From assembly GCA_003134435.1 (NCBI GenBank), contig PLBE01000213.1, positions 9,700 through 50,612 on the forward strand: DNA of 40,913 nucleotides, written 5' to 3'. The position numbers were made by a program, and so were the translations under genes. This DNA comes from Acidobacteriaceae bacterium (GTDB lineage: Bacteria; Acidobacteriota; Terriglobia; Terriglobales; Acidobacteriaceae). Below are positions 2-11,347 of this stretch, one piece after another (positions within the stretch are counted from its first letter, which is position 1; the number at the start of each line of letters is the position of its first letter). Below the pieces are notes generated by a model, which made no database searches, had not been told where the DNA came from, and saw only the letters and a program-made list of their open reading frames with translations.

Positions 2-202
2 GATCGCGGCGGCAGCGGCGAAAAAATTTCACTGAAAGACGCGGCCCGCGCCGCCTCCCGCGAGGCTGAAAGAGAGATTATTCTGCAGGTCCTGACCCGC
101 ACCCGCTGGAACCGGCGCCGAGCGGCCCAGGAGTTGCAAATCAGCTACAAAGCGCTGCTCTACAAACTGAAACAGATTGGATACGAAGAATTCGGCGCCT
201 GA
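2..202 (+). CDS. C-terminal end of a Fis-type (probably sigma-54-dependent) response regulator, partial
   Basis: The frame is open from the window edge to a TGA at 200-202 and encodes about 66 residues. It ends in a Fis-family helix-turn-helix: WNRRRAAQELQISYKALLYK, then LKQIG. This is the standard C-terminus of NtrC-like activators, which bind enhancer sites and drive sigma-54 RNA polymerase. The receiver and AAA+ domains would lie upstream, outside the window. Position immediately before an exopolysaccharide cluster matches the PrsR-type regulator commonly found at XrtA/PEP-CTERM EPS loci, so control of the downstream genes is a reasonable inference. I saw no clear -24/-12 promoter between it and the next gene. 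A stand-alone Fis-like protein cannot be excluded from this fragment. Confidence 0.8.
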   Translation, partial: DRGGSGEKISLKDAARAASREAEREIILQVLTRTRWNRRRAAQELQISYKALLYKLKQIGYEEFGA

Positions 203-276
203 GCACAACGGCCCGCGGTTTGAGCGTTACCAGAAGAGGGAATCGAGAAGTTTCGAGCAGTTAGAGGAGAAGGACT

Positions 277-918
277 ATGAAATTGACATGGCATGTGGCG
301 CTTACGGCACTCATCCTGATTGGCAGTATTGCGCTGGCGCAGGATGCGCCAGCCGCCAGCCCCGCTCCCGATAAGGCCGCCGCCGGCAAGAGCGCTTCGG
401 ACAATACGGCGAGCCCAGCCTCCAACAGCGCGGCCGGACCTGAGTATGTGATCGGTCCCGATGACGTGCTGCACGTAGCGGTATGGAAAGAAGCCGACCT
501 AACCGCCACTTTGCCGGTTCGTCCCGATGGCAAGATTTCTTTGCCCCTGCTGAACGATGTTCAGGCGGCGGGTCTTACTCCCGAGCAGTTAAGCCAGGCG
601 CTCACCGAGAAGCTCAAGAAATACATTTCCGATCCGCGGGTCACCGTGGTGGTGACTTCCATCAATAGCAAGCGGATTTACCTGACGGGCGAGGTTATGC
701 ATTCAGGGGCCACGCCGATGTTACCCAACATGACCGTCCTCCAAGCTTTGTCCAGCGCCGGCATCAGCCAGTTCGCCAACACGAAACGCATTTACGTCCT
801 GCGCACGGAAAACGGCAAGCAGGAAAAACTACCGGTGAACTATCAGAAGCTGGTCAAGGGCGAGCAGATTGAACAGAATTATCTGCTGCAGCCGGGCGAC
901 ACGATTGTCGTCCCGTAA
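277..918 (+). CDS. OPX/Wza-like polysaccharide export protein (short form)
   Basis: The protein has 213 residues. An N-terminal signal peptide (about 1-22, ending near ALAQDA) is followed by an Ala/Pro/Ser-rich linker. A Poly_export domain begins at YVIGPDDVLHVAVW (about 52-65) and contains VRPDGKISLPLL. One SLBB-like beta-grasp unit follows (RIYLTGEVMHSGATPM, about 130-145), and the protein ends at LLQPGDTIVVP. Family members form the periplasmic part of the EPS export channel. There is no lipobox Cys, and the C-terminal helix that forms the outer-membrane pore in full-length Wza is absent, because the protein stops right after the PGDTIVVP turn. An outer-membrane partner is therefore expected, and the next gene encodes a predicted beta-barrel. 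The ATG at 277 follows a good ribosome site (GAGGAGAAG). Confidence 0.9.
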   Translation: MKLTWHVALTALILIGSIALAQDAPAASPAPDKAAAGKSASDNTASPASNSAAGPEYVIGPDDVLHVAVWKEADLTATLPVRPDGKISLPLLNDVQAAGLTPEQLSQALTEKLKKYISDPRVTVVVTSINSKRIYLTGEVMHSGATPMLPNMTVLQALSSAGISQFANTKRIYVLRTENGKQEKLPVNYQKLVKGEQIEQNYLLQPGDTIVVP

Positions 919-960
919 GAGTTGCAAAGTGTTCGGTCGAAGGTGTGCGGCCCGGCACAG

Positions 961-982
961 ATCAAGGATCAAGGATCAAGGA
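961..982 (+). repeat. short tandem repeat of a 7-base unit
   Basis: Three consecutive copies of a unit reading AAGGATC/ATCAAGG lie in the gap between the export-protein gene and the beta-barrel gene. The flank holds more GATC-containing words. No function is evident; it may be replication slippage in a leader region. Confidence 0.6.
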
Positions 983-1033
983 TTGGTAATCGACGATCGA
1001 TGAAGATCGACGGGTGAAAAGCGAGTGAAGAGC

Positions 1034-2455
1034 ATGTTCATCACGAGAACAGTCCGTTTGGCGTTGCTGGTCATTGGCGGGAGCTTGTGGGCAGCGGCTC
1101 AGGGCAGTGCCCAATCCCAGCCCGCGACCACCCCGGCTCCAGCCTTTGGGCAGGAGAACGCGCCCATTCTGAGCCCGGAGAATCCGCCCGTTTCCGGCCT
1201 CGACGAGCCCGGCCTGGAGCTGCATACCGCCAGCCGCAGTTTCATTTCACCGGCCTTGCAGGTGAGCGAATCGGCCGACACGAATGGGAGCAACGTACTC
1301 GGCGGCGCTAATAATCTGGAGTCCACCACGCGCGTTCTGGGGGCTTTCGATCTTCAGCAGTTCTGGTCCAGGAGCGATCTCCTGATGGAGTATCTGGGGG
1401 GTGGAGCTTTCTACAGCAATCCTTATTACGCGAAGCAGTTGCAGGCCGCCGGCCTCGAGGCCGTGACCCGCTGGCGAACCGGGCAGGCGACCTTGCGCGA
1501 CGCCTTCAGCTACCTGCCCGATGGTTCGTTTTCGATTGGCACTTTCGGCGGCGCCCCGGGACTCGGTCTGGCCACGGGCGGCCTTGGGACGGGGGAGTCG
1601 GGTGGCGGTTTGCCCGGCAGTCACCTGTTCGGCAGCGGTCAGTTCGGCACCGTGGGCAACATTCCCCGGCTCACCAATACCGCGATACTCGATGCGGTGC
1701 AGGCGATTAGTCCGGTCTCCGCGATCACGGTGGCCGCTGGCTTCAGCAACGCTCATTTCTACGATCCGACCAATCTACTGATCAACAGCGACCAGATCAC
1801 CCTCGAGGGTGGATATGCCCGGCTGGTTTCCCATCACGATCAGCTTGGCATTGTCTACGCCTTTCAGCTGTTTCAATTTCCGCAGAATAGCGGCGGCCAG
1901 ATTTACAACCATATCGTCAATCTGCGCTGGAAATATAACCTGAGCGGCAGGCTGAGCCTCACCGCCGGCGCCGGTCCGCAATATACCGACCTGGAAGAGG
2001 GTGGCCTGTACATTACGCACTGGTCGCTGAGCGCGCGGGTGCAGTTGCGCTACAAACTGGGCCATGCGGCGGTGGTTGCCAGTTATGAGAAATTTACGTC
2101 GTCCGGCTCCGGCTTCTTCGCCGGCGCCAATACCCAGGCTGCCCGGCTCGGCTATACGCGGCCGCTGGGACGAACCTGGGATTTTTATGGAGACCTGGGC
2201 TACTCGCATAACAAGGAACTTCAGAATGCGGCACTGGGGGCGTTCCCGGCGACCAGCTACGACGATGGTTCGGCGGGCGCCGTTTTCCGCAAGCATCTCG
2301 GACGCACGTACGATTTTTTTGCCGCGTATCGTTTCAGCGAGGTGGCGTTCAATGTCGCTCCCTCGGATCTGGGCGGCTCCACCGGGAGAATCAGTCAGCG
2401 GCACGTTGGCACCATCGGGGTGGAATGGCACCCCAGGCCGACTCGGATCGAATAA
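1034..2455 (+). CDS. predicted outer-membrane beta-barrel protein of the EPS locus
   Basis: The product is about 473 residues and not recognised as a named family. A signal peptide (MFITRTVRLALLVIGG, cleaved near GSAQ) is followed by a Pro-rich segment. The rest consists of alternating hydrophobic/polar stretches typical of beta-strands, with aromatic girdle residues and Gly-rich turns (for example around residues 165-200). The segments FYGDLGYSHNKE, YDFFAAYRFSEVAF and HVGTIGVEWHP near the C-terminus look like closing strands. XrtA-type EPS loci usually carry an outer-membrane protein at this position (TIGR03016-like), and the upstream export protein lacks its own pore, so a porin-like EPS exit channel is the most attractive role. 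That role is inference. A GTG at 1025 is an alternative start adding three residues. Confidence 0.75.
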   Translation: MFITRTVRLALLVIGGSLWAAAQGSAQSQPATTPAPAFGQENAPILSPENPPVSGLDEPGLELHTASRSFISPALQVSESADTNGSNVLGGANNLESTTRVLGAFDLQQFWSRSDLLMEYLGGGAFYSNPYYAKQLQAAGLEAVTRWRTGQATLRDAFSYLPDGSFSIGTFGGAPGLGLATGGLGTGESGGGLPGSHLFGSGQFGTVGNIPRLTNTAILDAVQAISPVSAITVAAGFSNAHFYDPTNLLINSDQITLEGGYARLVSHHDQLGIVYAFQLFQFPQNSGGQIYNHIVNLRWKYNLSGRLSLTAGAGPQYTDLEEGGLYITHWSLSARVQLRYKLGHAAVVASYEKFTSSGSGFFAGANTQAARLGYTRPLGRTWDFYGDLGYSHNKELQNAALGAFPATSYDDGSAGAVFRKHLGRTYDFFAAYRFSEVAFNVAPSDLGGSTGRISQRHVGTIGVEWHPRPTRIE

Positions 2456-2496
2456 TTTCTGGGCCGCCTCGGGGCGGCCGGATTGGTGAACCAGCT

Positions 2497-4095
2497 ATGA
2501 GTGAAAATCGCGAACTGACAATGGACGATTATCTGGCGATGCTGCGGCGCCGCCTGAAAGTCATCTTGATCCCAGCCCTGCTTGCCCCGCTGGCGGGCTT
2601 CATGGTTTCTTATCTCTTTCCGCCAAAATATACCTCGCAGTCCACCGTGCTGGTCGAAGGCCAGAAGGTGCCTGACGCCTACGTCGCGCCGGTCATCACT
2701 TCGGATTTTACCCAGCGGGTTCAGACCCTGAGCCAGGAGGTCGTGAGCCCGACTCGCTTGCGCCCCGTGATTCAGGGCCTGGCGCTGGTCAAGCCCGAAG
2801 AAGAGGACAAGCTCATCAGCGAGATCCAGCAGAATTTACAGGTCCAGCCCGTGATCACCTCGATGAGCGCGGCTGCCGCGTCTTCCCCCGGCGCCAAGAA
2901 GAATAAGCCCTCTGCCTCCAGCGAACCCGTGCCGGGCTTCACCGTGAACTACTCGGACAGCAATGCCGCCCGTGCCCAGAAAATTTGCAACGCCATGACC
3001 TCGTTGATCGTGGACGAAAACTTGCGCGAGCGCGCCACCATTGCCGGCAGCACTACCGATTTTCTCAGCCGCCAGGTGGAGGATGCGAAGCGCACCGTCG
3101 ACGAACAGGACGCCAAGCTGGCCGCCTTCAAGAAGCAGTATTTGGGCCAGTTGCCAACCGATGTCGACAACAACATGCGGATGCTGATGTCGCTGAACTC
3201 GCAACTCGACGCCACGACCCAAGCCCTGAGCCGCGCGCAGCAGGACAAAGCCTATACCGAGAGCATGCTGGCGCAGCAGATTGCCGCCTGGAAAAGTTCG
3301 CAGTCGAGCGCCAACCCCCAGACCCTGGAACAGGAACTGACCCAGCTCAAGGCTCAATTGATGCAACTGCAGTCGCGTTATACCGACGATTACCCCGATG
3401 TGATCAAAACCAAGACTGAAATCGCCGACATCGAGAAGAAGCTGAAAGAAGTCAACGCCGCAGCCGCCGCCACTGTCCCCGAAAATACCGATAACGGTAG
3501 CGCCACCGAAACGCCTGAGATTCGCCAACTCCGCCTGCAGGTTCACCAGTACCAGGCCTCGATCGAGCAGAACACCCTCGACCAGAAGAAGCTGCAAAGC
3601 CAGATTGCGATCTACCAGAGCCGCACCGCCATGAGCCCAACCGTGGAAGAGCAGTACAAGGTGCTAACCCGCGACAACGATAACGCGCAGTCCTTTTACA
3701 AAGACCTGCTGGCCAAGAAAAGCGCCGCCGGACTCGGCACCAGCATGGAGAACGCGCAAGAAGGCGAGCAGATGCACATTCTGACCACGGCTGGCCTGGC
3801 GGATTCTCCCAGCTTTCCCGTCCGCCCGCTCTTTGCCGCCGCCGGCATGGGCGCGGGACTGGCGCTCGGCATCCTCATCGCCATCATTCTGGAGTTTAGC
3901 GACAAGTCCATCCGCACTGAGAAAGATGCGGCCGCCGTCATGGATCTGCCACTCCTGATCTCCGTGCCCTGGCTGGGCGAGGAGTCTGAGCCACAGGATG
4001 ACGTGGTCGGCAACGGCAATGGGCACGGTCGCCGCCGTTTCTGGGGCCGGGGCGATTCCGACCCGTCAAAAGAACACGAACACGTCGAGGTCTAG
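2497..4095 (+). CDS. Wzz/GNVR-type polysaccharide chain-length determinant protein
   Basis: The protein has 532 residues from the ATG at 2497. This start suits the conserved opening ELTMDDYLAMLRRRLKVIL; an in-frame ATG at 2425 would overlap the previous gene by about 30 bases. A first membrane helix (about 22-41) is followed by a periplasmic Wzz domain and long Gln/Lys/Asp-rich coiled coils (about 190-300 and 340-400). A second helix (LFAAAGMGAGLALGILIAII, about 445-467) precedes a cytoplasmic tail. The layout matches polysaccharide co-polymerases that set EPS chain length and work with a BY-kinase. No kinase domain is fused; the kinase is encoded two genes downstream. A Ser/Pro/Lys-rich insertion (about residues 124-150) interrupts the N-terminal periplasmic part. 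Confidence 0.9.
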   Translation: MSENRELTMDDYLAMLRRRLKVILIPALLAPLAGFMVSYLFPPKYTSQSTVLVEGQKVPDAYVAPVITSDFTQRVQTLSQEVVSPTRLRPVIQGLALVKPEEEDKLISEIQQNLQVQPVITSMSAAAASSPGAKKNKPSASSEPVPGFTVNYSDSNAARAQKICNAMTSLIVDENLRERATIAGSTTDFLSRQVEDAKRTVDEQDAKLAAFKKQYLGQLPTDVDNNMRMLMSLNSQLDATTQALSRAQQDKAYTESMLAQQIAAWKSSQSSANPQTLEQELTQLKAQLMQLQSRYTDDYPDVIKTKTEIADIEKKLKEVNAAAAATVPENTDNGSATETPEIRQLRLQVHQYQASIEQNTLDQKKLQSQIAIYQSRTAMSPTVEEQYKVLTRDNDNAQSFYKDLLAKKSAAGLGTSMENAQEGEQMHILTTAGLADSPSFPVRPLFAAAGMGAGLALGILIAIILEFSDKSIRTEKDAAAVMDLPLLISVPWLGEESEPQDDVVGNGNGHGRRRFWGRGDSDPSKEHEHVEV

Positions 4096-4104
4096 AGAAA
4101 GACT

Positions 4105-5061
4105 ATGTACAAAGAGTTTTTTGGACTTCGCGCCAACCCGTTCAACGTCAATCCGGACCCGCGTTATCTTTTTCTAACCCGGCATACGGAAGAGGCGCTG
4201 GCTTGCCTTACCTATGGCATCCAAAGCCGCAAAGGCTTCGTGTTGCTGACCGGCGAGGTCGGTACGGGCAAGACCACGCTGATCAATAAACTGATGGAGT
4301 GGCTGCGCCTGCAGCAGGTTGCGACCGCCTTTATCTTCAACTCGCGCATGGATGTGCCGCAGCTCCTCGATTTCATGATGGCCGATTTCGGCATTCCCTG
4401 CGACACCAAGTCCAAGAGTCAGATCCTGCAGCAACTCTACAACTGGCTGCTCGACCGCTATCGCGCCGGGGAAACGGCTGTGCTGGTGATTGACGAAGCC
4501 CAAAACCTCTCGGACGAAGTGCTGGAAGAGATTCGCATGCTCACCAATCTCGAGACCTTCACCGAAAAACTGCTGCAGATTGTCCTGGTCGGACAGCCCG
4601 AACTCGAGCAACGCCTGAAGCAGCCCCAGTTGCGCCAGTTGCGTCAGCGTCTCACCCTGCGCGCCAAGACCCATCCCCTGAATCTCGAGGAAACCAGGTC
4701 TTATATCAACCAGCGGCTGCGCATCGCGGGGTCGAACGGCGATCCGATTTTCGAACCCGACGCCACCGTGGCCATCTATCGTTATGCGCTGGGCATTCCG
4801 CGCGTCATTAACCTGCTCTGCGAACATTGCCTGGTGAGCGCCTTCGTCGATCAGAGCAAGACCGTTTCGGTCACGGTCGTCGATTCGGTGGCCCGGGATT
4901 TCGACCTCGCCGACGGCAACGCCGCAGCCGCCATGACTGCGCCCGCTCCCGCGTCTTCTGAAAAATTTGACCTGGTCGAGGCTTTACGCACTCTGGCAAC
5001 ACTGGCCGACCGGTTGCGACAATCGGAACCGCAAGATCTCCCCAAGGAAAGGAAAATATGA
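4105..5061 (+). CDS. ExeA/GspA-type AAA ATPase, XrtA/PEP-CTERM-system type
   Basis: The protein has 318 residues. It begins with the family signature MYKEFFGLRANPFNVNPDPR. Walker A is GEVGTGKT (about 50-57) and Walker B is VLVIDEAQNL (about 127-136). Further AAA features include a sensor-like QIVLVGQPELEQRL and LRQRLTLRAKTHPL. Relatives in type II secretion (GspA/ExeA) energise envelope assembly. The version found in exosortase-associated EPS loci (TIGR03015-like) has no settled biochemical role. There is no C-terminal peptidoglycan-binding domain; the protein ends in a short charged tail. Its last codon overlaps the start of the tyrosine kinase (ATGA), so the two are probably translationally coupled. 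It lies nine bases after the Wzz gene. Confidence 0.9.
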   Translation: MYKEFFGLRANPFNVNPDPRYLFLTRHTEEALACLTYGIQSRKGFVLLTGEVGTGKTTLINKLMEWLRLQQVATAFIFNSRMDVPQLLDFMMADFGIPCDTKSKSQILQQLYNWLLDRYRAGETAVLVIDEAQNLSDEVLEEIRMLTNLETFTEKLLQIVLVGQPELEQRLKQPQLRQLRQRLTLRAKTHPLNLEETRSYINQRLRIAGSNGDPIFEPDATVAIYRYALGIPRVINLLCEHCLVSAFVDQSKTVSVTVVDSVARDFDLADGNAAAAMTAPAPASSEKFDLVEALRTLATLADRLRQSEPQDLPKERKI

Positions 5062-5963
5062 GCCGCATCCATGACGCTTTGAAACGCGCCGAGCAGGAAA
5101 GAGCATCCTCCATGGGGACGCACGTCGAGCCCGCTTTCAACCCCCCCCCGGACGTCCAGCCCGAGAACATGCCGGAGATGCCTTCCCTGCAGCCTTCGCC
5201 CGCCGCCATGCCCGGCCGGGGCGCAGCGACCACTTACGAATCGCTGCTGGCGCGCTGCCCCCAGCCCGATTGGAGTCCCGATCCGCGCACTATGCTCTTC
5301 TTCCACGAAGACGATAATCGCATCGGCGCGGAAGAGTTTCGCACCTTGCGCTCCCGCCTCTATCAGATTCGCGAGAAGATGCAGTTGAAACGCCTGCTGG
5401 TCACGAGCGCGCTACCTAAAGAAGGGAAGTCCTTCGTGGCCGCCAATCTCGCCCAGGTCATGGTGCGGCAGCACGGACGCCGCGCCCTGGTGATCGACGC
5501 CGATCTGCGCAACCCCGGCATGCACCGCCACTTCGGCGCCCCGCCGCAACCCGGTCTCTCCGAATATCTGCTGGGCGAATGCGACGAGTTCGCCGCCCTG
5601 CAGCGCGGACCCATGGAAAACCTCTTCTTCATGCCCGCCGGCCGCCTTGCCGGCAGCGCTCCGGAACTGCTTTCCAATGGCCGTCTGAAGCTCCTGCTGC
5701 AGCGCGTCGAACCTTTGTTCGACTGGGTCATTATGGACTCTTCGCCCGTCATCCCCGTATCGGATGCCACCCTCGTTGCCAGTTGCTGCGACGGCATCCT
5801 GATGGTGGTGCGCTCCAACGCGACGCCTTCCGATCTGGCGCGCCGGGCCCGCGAGGAGTTTCCCGACAAGCTGCTTCTGGGAGTGGTGCTGAACGGAGCC
5901 CCCTCCGGCAAACTTTCACAGTCCAAGTACTACTATGGCGAGGCCGTGAACAGCCCCACCTAG
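5058..5963 (+). CDS. CpsD/CapB-type BY tyrosine kinase of the EPS locus
   Basis: The 301-residue cytoplasmic ATPase has a bacterial tyrosine-kinase layout. Walker A is SALPKEGKS (117-125), Walker A' is ALVIDADLRNP (about 143-153) and Walker B is WVIMDSSP (about 223-230). A tyrosine cluster near the end (SKYYYG) is the expected autophosphorylation site. Such kinases act with Wzz proteins in a phosphorylation cycle that controls polymer length and export. The first residues, MSRIHDALKRAEQER, resemble the conserved N-terminus of GspB/ExeB proteins and of other kinases in this type of locus. About 60 Pro-rich residues then precede the catalytic core. The gene starts inside the stop codon of the ATPase gene. 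Confidence 0.9.
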   Translation: MSRIHDALKRAEQERASSMGTHVEPAFNPPPDVQPENMPEMPSLQPSPAAMPGRGAATTYESLLARCPQPDWSPDPRTMLFFHEDDNRIGAEEFRTLRSRLYQIREKMQLKRLLVTSALPKEGKSFVAANLAQVMVRQHGRRALVIDADLRNPGMHRHFGAPPQPGLSEYLLGECDEFAALQRGPMENLFFMPAGRLAGSAPELLSNGRLKLLLQRVEPLFDWVIMDSSPVIPVSDATLVASCCDGILMVVRSNATPSDLARRAREEFPDKLLLGVVLNGAPSGKLSQSKYYYGEAVNSPT

Positions 5964-5995
5964 TTGACAAAAAATGAAGTTGAACCGAGGCTGCG

Positions 5996-7369
5996 TTGAT
6001 CCGGCTCTTTAATGTCTATTATCCAATCCGTACTCTGATCCTGCTGATCGGAGAGGCCCTGATTGTCTGGACCTCTTTCCTGCTCGGGGCCATGTACGAA
6101 TTTCAGGAAGACAGTTATCTGGCGCTCAACGCGGACCACGGCTATTACAAGATTCTCGGCCTGACGGTGCTGGTGTTGCTGTGCTCGCACTGGCTCGACC
6201 TTTACGACACGGCGCGCCTCAATCCTCCGGGTGAACTCTATTTTCGCCTCCTGCTGCTACCCGGAGTGCTGGCCTTCATTCTCGCGGCCGTGGCCTACGT
6301 ACGGCCCAGCTTACTGGTGGGGAGCGGTTCTTCCACCATTGGCCTTCTCATTCTCACAGTCGCCTTGTTCGGCTGGCGGATGGGATTCACGTGGCTGGTC
6401 CAGTTGCCGATTCTGGTGGAGCGCGTTTACGTTCTCGGGACCGGCGACCGTGCCCAGCGCGTGGTTCAAGGGCTGCGCCAGAACCCTGAACTGGGCGTCG
6501 AGATCGTGAATTGGACGGGCAAAATGGAAGGCGCGATCACCCTCGAGGCGGTGGCGGCACACCTGATGGACGTCTATCACAAACAAAAATTCCATCGCGT
6601 CATTGTCGCCATGGAGAACCGTCGCGGCGCTACCCCGATGGACCAGTTGCTGGAATTAAGGCTGGACGGGGTCAAGATCGAGGAAGCCACCAGTTGGCTG
6701 GAAAAGATCTCGGGCAGGATCGAGGTCGAAAATCTCAATCCCAGTTGGATGGTGTTTGGCGAAGGTTTTCGCCGCAGCACTCCCTTCAAAGCGGTACGCC
6801 GCGTACTTTCGTTGTGCATCTCGCTGGTGGGCCTCATCCTCGCGCTCCCTTTATTCCCCTTCATCATGCTCGCCATCCGCCTTGATTCCAAGGGCCCGGT
6901 GTTCTATACGCAGACCCGGGTGGGCAAGGGCAACCGCGAATTCAAAGTGATGAAGTTCCGCACCATGCGTCAGGACGCCGAAGCCGTGAGCGGACCGAAG
7001 TGGGCGGGCGATAATGATCCGCGCGTTACCCGCGTGGGCAAATTCCTGCGCTCCTCGCGCCTCGACGAGATTCCCCAGTTGTGGTGCGTGCTCAAAGGCG
7101 ATATGGCCTTCGTCGGCCCTCGCCCGGAGCGCCCGGAGTTCATCGCGATGCTCTCCGAGAAAATCCCATACTACAAAGTTCGGCACGTAGTGCGGCCCGG
7201 ACTCACCGGATGGGCGCAGGTGAAGTACAAGTATGGGAGCACGGTTGACGACGCGCGCGAAAAACTTCAATACGACCTCTTCTACATCAAGAACGCTTCC
7301 ATTGGTCTGGATCTGCTGATCATGTTCCAGACTATCAAGACCGTCCTCTTGCGCCGGGGTGCACAGTGA
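5996..7369 (+). CDS. polyprenyl glycosylphosphotransferase (EPS priming enzyme, EpsB/WbaP-like)
   Basis: The protein has 457 residues. It would start EPS repeat-unit synthesis by moving a sugar-1-phosphate onto undecaprenyl phosphate at the inner membrane. Four or five N-terminal helices (about 10-140) precede a Rossmann-like segment (VYVLGTGDRAQRVV). The catalytic domain at the C-terminus has GPVFYTQTRVG (about 300), FKVMKFRTM (about 318), LDEIPQLWCVLKGDMAFVGP (about 355) and YYKVRHVVRPGLTGWAQV. The start is taken as TTG at 5996: it gives the usual MIRLFNVYYP opening and has GAGG upstream, while the nearby ATG at 5974 leads to a stop after 12 codons. The sugar is not predictable; glucose or an N-acetylhexosamine is typical. 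Confidence 0.92.
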   Translation: MIRLFNVYYPIRTLILLIGEALIVWTSFLLGAMYEFQEDSYLALNADHGYYKILGLTVLVLLCSHWLDLYDTARLNPPGELYFRLLLLPGVLAFILAAVAYVRPSLLVGSGSSTIGLLILTVALFGWRMGFTWLVQLPILVERVYVLGTGDRAQRVVQGLRQNPELGVEIVNWTGKMEGAITLEAVAAHLMDVYHKQKFHRVIVAMENRRGATPMDQLLELRLDGVKIEEATSWLEKISGRIEVENLNPSWMVFGEGFRRSTPFKAVRRVLSLCISLVGLILALPLFPFIMLAIRLDSKGPVFYTQTRVGKGNREFKVMKFRTMRQDAEAVSGPKWAGDNDPRVTRVGKFLRSSRLDEIPQLWCVLKGDMAFVGPRPERPEFIAMLSEKIPYYKVRHVVRPGLTGWAQVKYKYGSTVDDAREKLQYDLFYIKNASIGLDLLIMFQTIKTVLLRRGAQ

Positions 7370-8598
7370 TGAGCGCCATCATCAGCGCTACCGGGATAAG
7401 AATAATGAAATGTGTATTCTGGATGGCGGCTGCCTTGGTTGGCTACTCCTACCTGGGCTATCCCGTGTGGTTATGGATGCGCAGCCTCTGGTCGCCCCGT
7501 CCCGTGCGCCGCAATTCCGGTCACAGCTTGAAAAATGGTTTGGAAAATAGTCTGGCACTGCCCTCGGTCTCGGCGGTGATGGTAGTGCGCAACGAGGAAG
7601 CGGTCATCGCCCGCAAACTGGAAAACCTGCTGGCGCTCGACTATCCCAGGAATAAGCTGGAAGTGGTTGTCGTCTCCGACGGCTCCAGCGATCGCACGCC
7701 CGCCATTCTTGCCGATTACGCGCGCGCCTCGGAAGCGCGAACGGAATCGCGGGAGGGCGCGCCCATCCGGGTGCGAACTCTTCTCAAACCGCAATCCCAG
7801 GGCAAAGCCGCGGGTCTCAACGACGCCATCAAACTCGCGGTTGGGGAGATTCTGCTGTTTACCGACGCCCGCCAGGACCTCGAGTGCGGCGCCCTGCGTC
7901 TGCTGATCGAGAATTTCGCCGACCCCGATGTCGGCGCCGCCAGCGGTGAGTTGATGCTGGGAGATCCTGCCAGCGGAGAGACGGGGCAGGGAATGGGTTT
8001 GTACTGGCGCGTGGAAAAGAAGATTCGCGAGCTCGAGTCCGCCTCGGCTTCGGTCGTCGGTGCGACCGGGGCGATTTACTGCGTTCGCCGCAGCTTGTTT
8101 TTACCCTTGCCGGAAGGCACTATTCTCGACGATGTTCTGGTTCCCATGGAAATCGTGCGCCAGGGATTTCGCGTAATCTTCGATTCGCGCGCCCGCGCCT
8201 GGGATGCGCCCGACCTCGGCGAAGGCCGTGAATTTTCCCGCAAGGTCCGCACTCTCAGCGGCAACTATCAGCTTCCCCAACTTGCTCCGTGGCTGCTGAG
8301 TTCGCAAAATGCGATCCGCTTCGAATACATAAGCCACAAGCTTTCACGGCTGGCAGTGCCCTTTGCCTTGCTGGCGCTTTTGCTCTCTTCGATGCTGGTG
8401 CCCCAGCCCCTTTATCGCGCCGCGCTGGCCGCGCAGCTGGCGTTTTATGCCCTCAGCCTGGCCGCCCTGGCGGGCCTTCGGATCGGTCCCTTGTCACGCA
8501 TTGCCGATCCCGCCCGCACGTTCGTCATTCTCAATTCCGCCGCTCTGGTCGCCTTCGTCAACTTCGTCACCGGCAGAAAGGCGGTCTGGGTTCGCTGA
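7369..8598 (+). CDS. membrane-anchored family 2 glycosyltransferase
   Basis: The protein is about 409 residues. An N-terminal membrane helix (CVFWMAAALVGYSYLGY) precedes a GT-A fold: VSAVMVVRNEEAVIARKLE, VVVVSDGSSDRTP, LLFTDARQDL (the DxD-like position) and ILDDVLVPMEIVRQGF, followed by RKVRTLSGNYQLL-type residues. Three or so helices close the C-terminus. This is the architecture of processive or lipid-linked inverting transferases that extend a polysaccharide at the inner membrane. The start overlaps the stop of the priming enzyme (TGATG). A second in-frame ATG at 7405, just before the membrane helix, is possible. The donor sugar cannot be read from sequence. Confidence 0.9.
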   Translation: MSAIISATGIRIMKCVFWMAAALVGYSYLGYPVWLWMRSLWSPRPVRRNSGHSLKNGLENSLALPSVSAVMVVRNEEAVIARKLENLLALDYPRNKLEVVVVSDGSSDRTPAILADYARASEARTESREGAPIRVRTLLKPQSQGKAAGLNDAIKLAVGEILLFTDARQDLECGALRLLIENFADPDVGAASGELMLGDPASGETGQGMGLYWRVEKKIRELESASASVVGATGAIYCVRRSLFLPLPEGTILDDVLVPMEIVRQGFRVIFDSRARAWDAPDLGEGREFSRKVRTLSGNYQLPQLAPWLLSSQNAIRFEYISHKLSRLAVPFALLALLLSSMLVPQPLYRAALAAQLAFYALSLAALAGLRIGPLSRIADPARTFVILNSAALVAFVNFVTGRKAVWVR

Positions 8599-9982: not shown

Positions 9983-11347
9983 GTGGCCATCGGCGATAAC
10001 GGCAATAAAGGAATAGTAGCGACGGCGAGCCCCACGGGCAGGCGCATGTCGATCAAGATGTCGGATCCGACCAAGGGCGCGTTCTTCTGGCTGACCGCTT
10101 TCTTTATCGTGTATTGCACCCGCTTCCAGGACTTCATTCCGGGTTTTTCATATCTCCCGGTCGCCAAGGTTCCCGCCATCATGGCCATGTGGGGGCTGTT
10201 CAACTCTCTAGGCAAGACCAAACGGTCTTTCAAAGATCTGCCTAAGATGGCGAATCTGCTGCTCTACATCATCCTTCTGATGTACGTTGGCGCCTTCCTG
10301 TCTCCCATCTGGAGGGGCGGAGCGCTGACCCGCACCATCGACTTTTCCAAGATTTACATCTGTTGGGTGCTGGTTTTCCTGCTCATCACGACGTTTACCC
10401 GCCTGAAACGGATCATTTTCATTCAGGCGTTTTCGGTGGTCATGGTTTGCATCGCGGTCATCATCAAGGGACACGACGTACCGCGGCTCGAACAAGTGCT
10501 GGGCGGCTTCTATTCGAATCCCAACGATCTCGCCTTTGCCGTCGTGCTGTCGCTGCCCTATGCCCTGGCTTTTTTCGTGATCGCTAAGAATGGTGCGGTG
10601 AAAGCGTTCTGGTTTGTCGGGATGCTGCTGATGTTGACCGTGATTTTTCTAACCGCCTCCCGCGCCGGTTTCATCGATCTGGTTTGCTCCTTTAGCATTG
10701 CGCTCTACTACATCGCCGTCAAAGGAAAGCGCTACTGGTTGATCGCGGCAAGCCTGGTCCTCGGAGTGGTGATTCTGTCCACGGTGGGCGGGAGACTCTA
10801 CGACCGGTTTAACGCGCTGTCGGGCAACAGCACGACCGAGAAGGGTGCCTATGGATCGTATGAAGACCGCAAGTACCTCATGGTGCGCGCCGTCGAGGGC
10901 ATCGAGCATTATCCGGTGTTCGGTCTTGGTTGTCGGAACTTCGAAACCTATTCCCTGATCTGGCACGAAGTGCACATGACCTACCTCCAGATTGCCGTCG
11001 AATGCGGTATTCCGGCGCTGATTCTCTACTTGATGTTTTTCTGGCGAGACTTCCAGAATATGTTTGCACTTCACAGAATGAAGAATCTCGATCCCGAGGT
11101 CAGGCTCTTTGCCGGGGCCTTGACCGGTTCCCAGGTGGGCTTCGTGGTGGGGGCATTATTTGCGCCGGAAGCTTACCAGTTCTTCCCCTATTTTGCCGCG
11201 GCTTTTACGGCTACGCTATTGCAGACCGTCAAAGAGCAAGACAAACAAGGACCCGGCTCGCCGCTCCCTCCGGCGAAAAAGCCGCGTCACTTCCTGGAGG
11301 TTTATGCCGATCACCGAACCACTGGTGCAGTCTCACCTGTCCGTTGA
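9983..11347 (+). CDS. O-antigen ligase/polymerase family membrane protein (Wzy/WaaL-like)
   Basis: The protein has 454 residues and about ten to twelve hydrophobic helices. The large periplasmic loop (about residues 265-330) contains SYEDRKYLMVRAVEGIEHYP and VFGLGCRNFETYS, which match the Wzy_C/O-antigen ligase pattern, with an Arg in the loop and the usual HxxY-like EVHMTYLQIAVECG. Related proteins in EPS loci act as polymerase (Wzy) or as putative O-glycosylation ligase. No other polymerase is present, so Wzy is the likelier role. The start is taken as GTG 9983 after AGAGG; ATG 10046 is an alternative. The 3' end overlaps the next gene by 44 bases. Confidence 0.85.
   Translation: MAIGDNGNKGIVATASPTGRRMSIKMSDPTKGAFFWLTAFFIVYCTRFQDFIPGFSYLPVAKVPAIMAMWGLFNSLGKTKRSFKDLPKMANLLLYIILLMYVGAFLSPIWRGGALTRTIDFSKIYICWVLVFLLITTFTRLKRIIFIQAFSVVMVCIAVIIKGHDVPRLEQVLGGFYSNPNDLAFAVVLSLPYALAFFVIAKNGAVKAFWFVGMLLMLTVIFLTASRAGFIDLVCSFSIALYYIAVKGKRYWLIAASLVLGVVILSTVGGRLYDRFNALSGNSTTEKGAYGSYEDRKYLMVRAVEGIEHYPVFGLGCRNFETYSLIWHEVHMTYLQIAVECGIPALILYLMFFWRDFQNMFALHRMKNLDPEVRLFAGALTGSQVGFVVGALFAPEAYQFFPYFAAAFTATLLQTVKEQDKQGPGSPLPPAKKPRHFLEVYADHRTTGAVSPVR

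Follow-up and report, generated by a model that had tools for sequence, protein, structure and literature searches.

Two papers of 2022 (PMC9601211, PMC9603273) described composite translocons, in which an outer-membrane polysaccharide export (OPX) protein is paired with a β-barrel (EpsY/EpsX, WzaX/WzpX), as widespread. In the account given in PMC9601211, EpsX and EpsY stabilize each other and interact in pull-downs, and EpsX is important for exopolysaccharide (EPS). A candidate pair of this kind lies at the beginning of the stretch analyzed here, termed the window, which comprises 40,913 nucleotides of a 5.75 Mb Acidobacteriaceae draft genome (GCA_003134435.1, contig PLBE01000213.1; G000:C71:9700-50612). 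A short OPX gene (277-918) is followed by the gene of a predicted β-barrel (1025-2455), and, by analogy with Myxococcus, the two products probably form the outer-membrane end of a Wzx/Wzy-type EPS exporter, with the barrel as the pore and the OPX protein as a periplasmic ring. The idea itself is not new; the window pair adds an acidobacterial barrel family. The initial annotation had proposed a split export channel that might be an independent example of the Myxococcus arrangement. The pore-less OPX protein, the predicted barrel, the conserved pairing, and the polysaccharide operon speak for the split channel, and the reading is well supported as an analogy, but with composite translocons already known to be widespread, the pair is not an isolated independent case.

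The OPX protein (277-918, + strand) is a D1D2-type, class 3 member of 213 residues with no C-terminal membrane helix. A probable type I signal peptide (277-339, ending in ALA before Q) was read from the sequence itself without a signal-peptide program. The D1 domain with its PES motif follows (Poly_export PF02563, 430-657, residues 52-127, 100.3 bits, cut-off 28), then a D2 domain made of a single SLBB unit (SLBB_2 PF22461, 670-912, residues 132-212 of 213, 38.4 bits, cut-off 27), and the chain stops one residue past this sole unit. Wza_C (PF18412) gives no match in the protein up to an E-value of 1. A 36-row OPX profile aligns to residues 56-230 of the 359 in Wza chain 2j58_A (E 1.1e-33); going by the alignment, the part covered is D1 + D2, before D3 and D4 (domain names as used in PMC9601211). 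The AlphaFold2 model, with a mean predicted local distance difference test score (pLDDT) of 83.7 and a predicted template-modeling score (pTM) of 0.60, is confident over the D1-D2 part and low in the N-terminal region. The protein contains no cysteine and therefore no lipobox. With D1 + D2 alone and no cysteine, a helical pore or a lipid anchor is hardly to be expected of it. The claims of the initial annotation that the protein ends right after its SLBB unit, without the Wza helix, and that it lacks a lipobox thus hold.

Wza of Escherichia coli, a class 1 OPX protein, shares D1 and D2 with the window protein, which has no D3, no D4 membrane helix, and no lipid anchor. EpsY as described in PMC9601211 is likewise a D1 + D2-only protein, of 217 residues against 213 here. 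The window protein also falls within the size and domain range used for composite translocons (at most 280 residues, Poly_export and SLBB only). Unlike the myxobacterial OPX proteins, which according to PMC9601211 are predicted lipoproteins with one exception, it has no lipobox; about 30% of class 3 OPX proteins at large have type I signals in the account of PMC9603273, so the missing lipid anchor is not unusual. Both equivalog models of this kind stay below their cut-offs, namely TIGR03027 for the OPX protein of XrtA systems (161.8 bits, cut-off 180) and NF041843 for EpsY (135.9 bits, cut-off 320). A truncated or misannotated Wza was rejected as an explanation of the short chain, since the C-terminal end (I/L)(V/I)VP is common to all 36 aligned rows including the window (L036 is one residue longer) and 20 of 20 further OPX loci have 0-1 residues after the profile end. 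An earlier start that would add a lipobox was also rejected, as the open reading frame (ORF) already uses the earliest start codon available downstream of a stop and contains no cysteine. Of the 36 aligned rows, 3 contain a loose lipobox pattern and 14 have any cysteine before D1; these are soft counts, as several row starts are uncertain, each row being taken from its first possible codon, with L037 trimmed by hand.

The adjacent gene (1025-2455, + strand, GTG start) encodes a protein of 476 residues, predicted to be an 18-strand outer-membrane β-barrel and the EpsX/Wzp-like porin of the pair. Its N-terminus is hydrophobic and holds a probable signal peptide (1025-1099, AAA before Q26, by sequence reading); Q26 is invariant in 35 rows, and the helix at residues 2-23, which coincides with this peptide, is the sole helix of four or more residues in the model. 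The barrel domain itself (1241-2428, residues 73-468) has 18 strands in the AlphaFold2 model, which was built from the 35-row alignment A1 (pLDDT 77.4, pTM 0.75); residues 26-50, 64-68, 168-198, 204-208, and 446-452 have a pLDDT under 50. Alignment A1 leaves out L048, where the barrel is split into two frames, and L013, which is the window itself; apart from the window's own row, all rows are short of the last residue. The expectation of the initial annotation, a signal-peptide protein with a barrel of about 16-18 strands, agrees with these results, and the non-barrel fold that it had named as a refutation was not predicted. Just before strand 1 lies a conserved segment (1175-1240, residues 51-72, consensus PDxxPLxG...TLG...RS) in which information averages 2.28 bits per column, compared with 1.52 in residues 26-50 (the overall value is 2.01); judged by this conservation, it could be the peptide that docks the OPX protein.

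At the level of sequence the barrel is an acidobacterial family of its own that touches TIGR03016, the exosortase/PEP-CTERM-associated outer-membrane protein, only weakly. No NCBIfam or Pfam model exceeds its cut-off on the window barrel; OMP_b-brl (PF13505) comes just below (26.7 bits, cut-off 28.7), and TIGR03016 gives 13.5 bits against a cut-off of 90.85. The suggestion that the barrel family is undescribed is borne out in that no curated cut-off is reached, and is tempered by the 19 of 35 members that match TIGR03016 at E ≤ 1, the best at 5e-8. TIGR03016 exceeds its cut-off in none of 199 genomes of the phylum, and a PDB sequence profile search with the barrel alignment gave no match up to E 1. 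The closest relatives are in six metagenome-assembled genomes, four assigned to Acidobacteriaceae, one to Terriglobales, and one to Terriglobia, where the best-matching segment is 66-75% identical; plasmid sequences gave no tblastn match to the barrel. Eight diverged barrel candidates, 16-25% identical to the first of them, were aligned jointly, and the alignment was set aside. The likeness to EpsX, described in PMC9601211 as an adjacent barrel with 18 predicted strands and an AlgE-like fold, is drawn from fold and gene context. AlgE itself, the alginate exporter of Pseudomonas aeruginosa, is an 18-strand barrel that exports a polysaccharide, although in a pathway that is synthase-dependent (PMC9601211), unlike that proposed for the window.

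The two genes keep company across genomes. In every one of the loci fetched by a relative of the barrel (36 of 36), the gene immediately upstream, on the same strand, is an OPX ORF; these are 30 loci fetched of 47 matches (window included) and the six closest relatives. The loci were chosen by the barrel, and pairing seen from the OPX side is less complete. Profiles run on 151 genomes of the class gave at least 81 barrel matches in at least 72 genomes (E ≤ 1e-5) and at least 124 OPX matches in at least 106 genomes (E ≤ 1e-35); the searches scored the best 10 or best 20 first-look candidates per genome, so the true numbers may be higher and absences are tentative. Among the listed matches an OPX gene is upstream of 65 of the 81 barrels, including 36 of the best 40. 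The co-occurrence that the initial annotation had put forward as a check is found when counted from the barrel side. Two of the four unpaired top barrel matches (G116 and G120) have the barrel beside the ATPase and kinase genes, with an OPX-PCP pair on another contig (PCP, polysaccharide co-polymerase). In L016, L023, L025, L027, L028, and L030 the ATPase gene comes directly after the barrel, and no PCP gene is in the fetched stretch.

In the window, the OPX and barrel genes head what is, by its sequence matches, an exosortase-type EPS operon. All genes that follow are on the + strand. The first encodes a Wzz-type PCP (2497-4095; TIGR03007 210.3 bits, below its cut-off of 278.85; PF02706 33.0 bits, cut-off 25.5) with two transmembrane segments and 406 residues between them; a Wzz-type PCP is also present in the EpsY/EpsX cluster as described in PMC9601211. 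Next come an AAA ATPase of exosortase-type EPS loci (4105-5061; TIGR03015 308.5 bits, just below its cut-off of 324.5), a tyrosine autokinase partner of the PCP (5058-5963; TIGR01007 127.7 bits, cut-off 108.05; TIGR03018 133.5, below its cut-off of 230.65), and an initiating sugar-phosphate transferase (5996-7369; TIGR03013 443 bits, cut-off 393.35). A GT2 glycosyltransferase (7366-8598; PF00535 69.5 bits, cut-off 23.3), a GT4-type glycosyltransferase resembling TIGR03087 (8609-9892; 228.8 bits, below its cut-off of 316.65), and a Wzy/O-antigen-ligase-like membrane protein resembling TIGR03097 (9983-11347; E 4.8e-15, 55.3 bits, below its cut-off of 188.1) complete the set. Among the exosortase-type TIGR models in the operon, TIGR03013 and TIGR01007 exceed their cut-offs and the others stay below. 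Polysaccharide biosynthesis genes thus lie within five genes of the OPX gene, as in the composite translocons. Dependence on Wzx/Wzy is inferred from the Wzy-like gene; the flippase-type genes (six Polysacc_synt matches over cut-off in the genome) are on other contigs, none on that of the window.

Polymer made at the inner membrane would be handed by the Wzz co-polymerase to the OPX protein, which may assemble into a periplasmic ring of D1 + D2 domains. Because the OPX protein has neither a membrane helix nor a lipid anchor, it would pass the polymer on to the adjacent 18-strand barrel, the presumed pore, through which the polymer would leave the cell. Domain content, the missing membrane part and cysteine, the predicted barrel with its strand number, the operon context, and the conserved pairing come from this analysis. 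Formation of the ring, docking of the barrel on it, and passage of polymer through the barrel are taken by analogy from the Myxococcus system and from the EPS-negative barrel mutant of Sphingomonas in PMC11340318.

Several results weigh against the assignment of the pair to export. Even in Myxococcus, according to PMC9603273, evolutionary-coupling data do not bolster a WzpB-WzaB contact. Furthermore, exporters are not the only barrels that the fold matches. In VIA-align the nearest folds are BenF-like/OprD-type porins (Z 19.5); AlgE (5iyu) follows at Z 18.7 (root-mean-square deviation 5.0, 316 residues aligned, 10% identity), which places OprD/Occ substrate porins within 1 Z unit of it, and the unrelated barrels maltoporin and Tom40 still reach Z ~15.7-16.4. 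In Foldseek the AlgE and OprD-type rows reach a TM-score of only ~0.4 by query length. With these rows less than 1 Z apart and TM-scores of this size, the fold identifies an outer-membrane porin, not which one. This lack of specificity gives some room to a barrel that is a surface anchor or lectin, or a polymer-modifying enzyme, rather than a pore, with the OPX protein using an unknown or distant exporter. Wzi is a precedent, being also an 18-strand barrel, with an N-terminal helical bundle that closes its periplasmic end, and serving the anchoring of group 1 capsule and not export (PMC9601211). Such a role is nonetheless unlikely: the OPX protein needs another pore because it has no membrane-spanning part, a porin-like neighbor travels with it, and the helical bundle of Wzi has no counterpart in the barrel model, though residues 26-50 are of low confidence. 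The 50 VIA-align matches listed do not include Wzi, which excludes nothing.

A second point against the export pair is found among the other OPX genes of the genome, which has six. Two end after D2, that of the window and that of G000:C4, each followed by barrel, PCP, ATPase, and kinase genes, and two parallel composite exporters are likely. The second set (L008, G000:C4:58000-70000, positions 174-6047) is diverged, with an OPX protein of 255 residues; its barrel was missed by phmmer and caught by the profile (E 4.4e-24; hhalign E 8.9e-18 over 374 columns). The other four OPX proteins (L009, L010, L011, L012) carry ~25-32 residues past their last domain, and these tails could perhaps span the membrane. 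The initial annotation had named a full-length Wza elsewhere as a refutation; none of the six OPX proteins matches Wza_C (the window protein up to E 1, the four tailed ones up to E 0.1), which speaks against one, while the tails keep part of the objection alive. Being short, the Wza_C model could overlook distant helices; the one signal listed for it in the genome, 14.9 bits and below the 25.8 cut-off, lies on C103 ~38 kb from that contig's OPX gene. Helical-moment values of the tailed C-termini were not informative. No barrel of the window family was found on the contigs of the tailed proteins among the best 10 of 34 first-look candidates, and the pattern of tailless OPX proteins with a barrel and tailed OPX proteins agrees with the split described by Schwabe et al. 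One of the tailed proteins could serve as the pore of the window pathway, the short OPX protein being only an adaptor. The tails are what recommends this arrangement; it is improbable, more so than an anchoring barrel, as the four proteins give no Wza_C match and sit at other loci, L012 with its own Wzz-like neighbor (E 2e-9), and as the short OPX protein keeps its barrel and PCP or ATPase neighbors in other genomes.

The strictness of the pairing is the third point. Seen from the OPX side, a barrel is beside 65 of the 124 listed matches, and 59 close OPX matches have no barrel match alongside. Twenty of these 59 loci were fetched and read. Eight do have an adjacent barrel by hmmsearch or hhalign (L052-L056, L058, L061, L068); the weakest of them, L055, L056, and L068, give hhalign E-values of 1e-6 to 1.5e-5, against 0.04-0.1 for three signal-less comparisons. 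In L065 the comparison with the barrel family gives an E-value of 0.0026, between these two ranges, and in two loci (L057, L060) a barrel is elsewhere in the cluster. The remaining nine (L050, L051, L059, L062-L064, L066, L067, L069) have no barrel beside the OPX gene and tell against a strict pairing rule. L050 and L051 have a barrel on another contig; in the other seven, a short OPX gene is followed by PCP and kinase genes. Weak barrel matches also occur without neighbors that match the EPS query proteins (L079 4922-6244, L080 5410-6723, L081 4911-6257, L083 4197-5828). Mere hitch-hiking in the operon by a general porin, for which the OprD-like fold match, these relatives outside recognized EPS loci, and the nine barrel-less loci could be cited, is very improbable given the adjacency seen from the barrel side (36/36, and 65/81 listed) and the G116 and G120 barrels, which stay beside the pathway ATPase and kinase though OPX and PCP are on another contig. 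As a separate observation, L057 has an 84-residue ORF (10532-10783) with weak OPX similarity (E 3e-4) close upstream of its barrel relative and apart from the main OPX gene, which is adjoined by a 338-residue ORF.

The composite OPX/barrel exporter proposed for the window has a parallel in gene content in the promonan cluster of Sphingomonas LM7. As described in PMC11340318, barrel (prmC), OPX (prmD), ATPase (prmE), Wzz (prmF), and kinase (prmG) genes stand there in a row, and deletion of each of the five makes the strain EPS-negative. The parts are those of the window, with the difference that the barrel precedes the OPX gene, and the likeness is drawn from gene content. When hhalign was used to compare the barrel family with single barrel candidates from a Sphingomonas and an Alteromonas XrtA locus, no signal emerged (E-values 0.063 and 0.043, with 0.095 for a control, a large ORF read as a TonB-type receptor), so these comparisons do not show common descent. 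At L075 of Sphingomonas a protein resembling TIGR03016 (23 bits, E 3.5e-5) is encoded three genes on from the OPX gene, not beside it; in Alteromonas L076 the 560-residue neighbor of the OPX protein has no NCBIfam match up to E 0.1. The window operon is of the same kind as the XrtA/PEP-CTERM EPS loci that TIGR03016 and TIGR03027 represent, but its proteins miss both cut-offs.

Among the papers covered by text searches, only PMC11340318 contains exosortase, OPX, and barrel together, and none names TIGR03016 or brings Acidobacteria, exosortase, and exopolysaccharide together. The main texts of PMC9601211 and PMC9603273 contain no occurrence of exosortase, PEP-CTERM, or Acidobacteria, although acidobacterial examples may sit in their figures or supplements, and the main text of the 2006 exosortase paper (PMC1569441) has no "polysaccharide export", "barrel", or "Acidobacteri". 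The present comparison offers a likely function for a barrel family of acidobacterial EPS operons that falls under every curated cut-off, and it suggests that exosortase (PEP-CTERM) loci may export polymer through two-part channels. A wider proposal, possible but leaning toward doubtful, is that composite OPX/barrel translocons are the norm in exosortase-linked EPS loci, that the acidobacterial family and perhaps TIGR03016 are export porins, and that in most of the acidobacterial branch OPX proteins without helix or lipid anchor reach the outer membrane only via the barrel, possibly through segment 51-72. If the reading of the window pair as a two-part channel is right, the family offers non-lipidated OPX/barrel pairs that might be easier to purify for the structure of a composite channel.

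The surroundings of the operon add a few minor observations. No repeats were found in the gap between the OPX and barrel genes; a promoter scan gave 0 sites against 1.3 in shuffled sequences, and terminators numbered 7 against 5.6. Six PEP-CTERM signals exceed their cut-off in the genome. About 1.3 kb before the start of the window is a divergent, fused exosortase-EpsI gene (L007 6683-8407, - strand), for which TIGR04152 (XrtD) scores 404.4 against a cut-off of 400 and TIGR02914 is over its cut-off, with the XrtA model below its own; an XrtD-scoring fusion adjoins an XrtA-like EPS operon. Between them, just before the window, unresolved bases (X in the translation) near L007 9695 break an ORF upstream of the OPX gene, which on reading, without a search, resembles a putative sigma-54-activator-like regulator.

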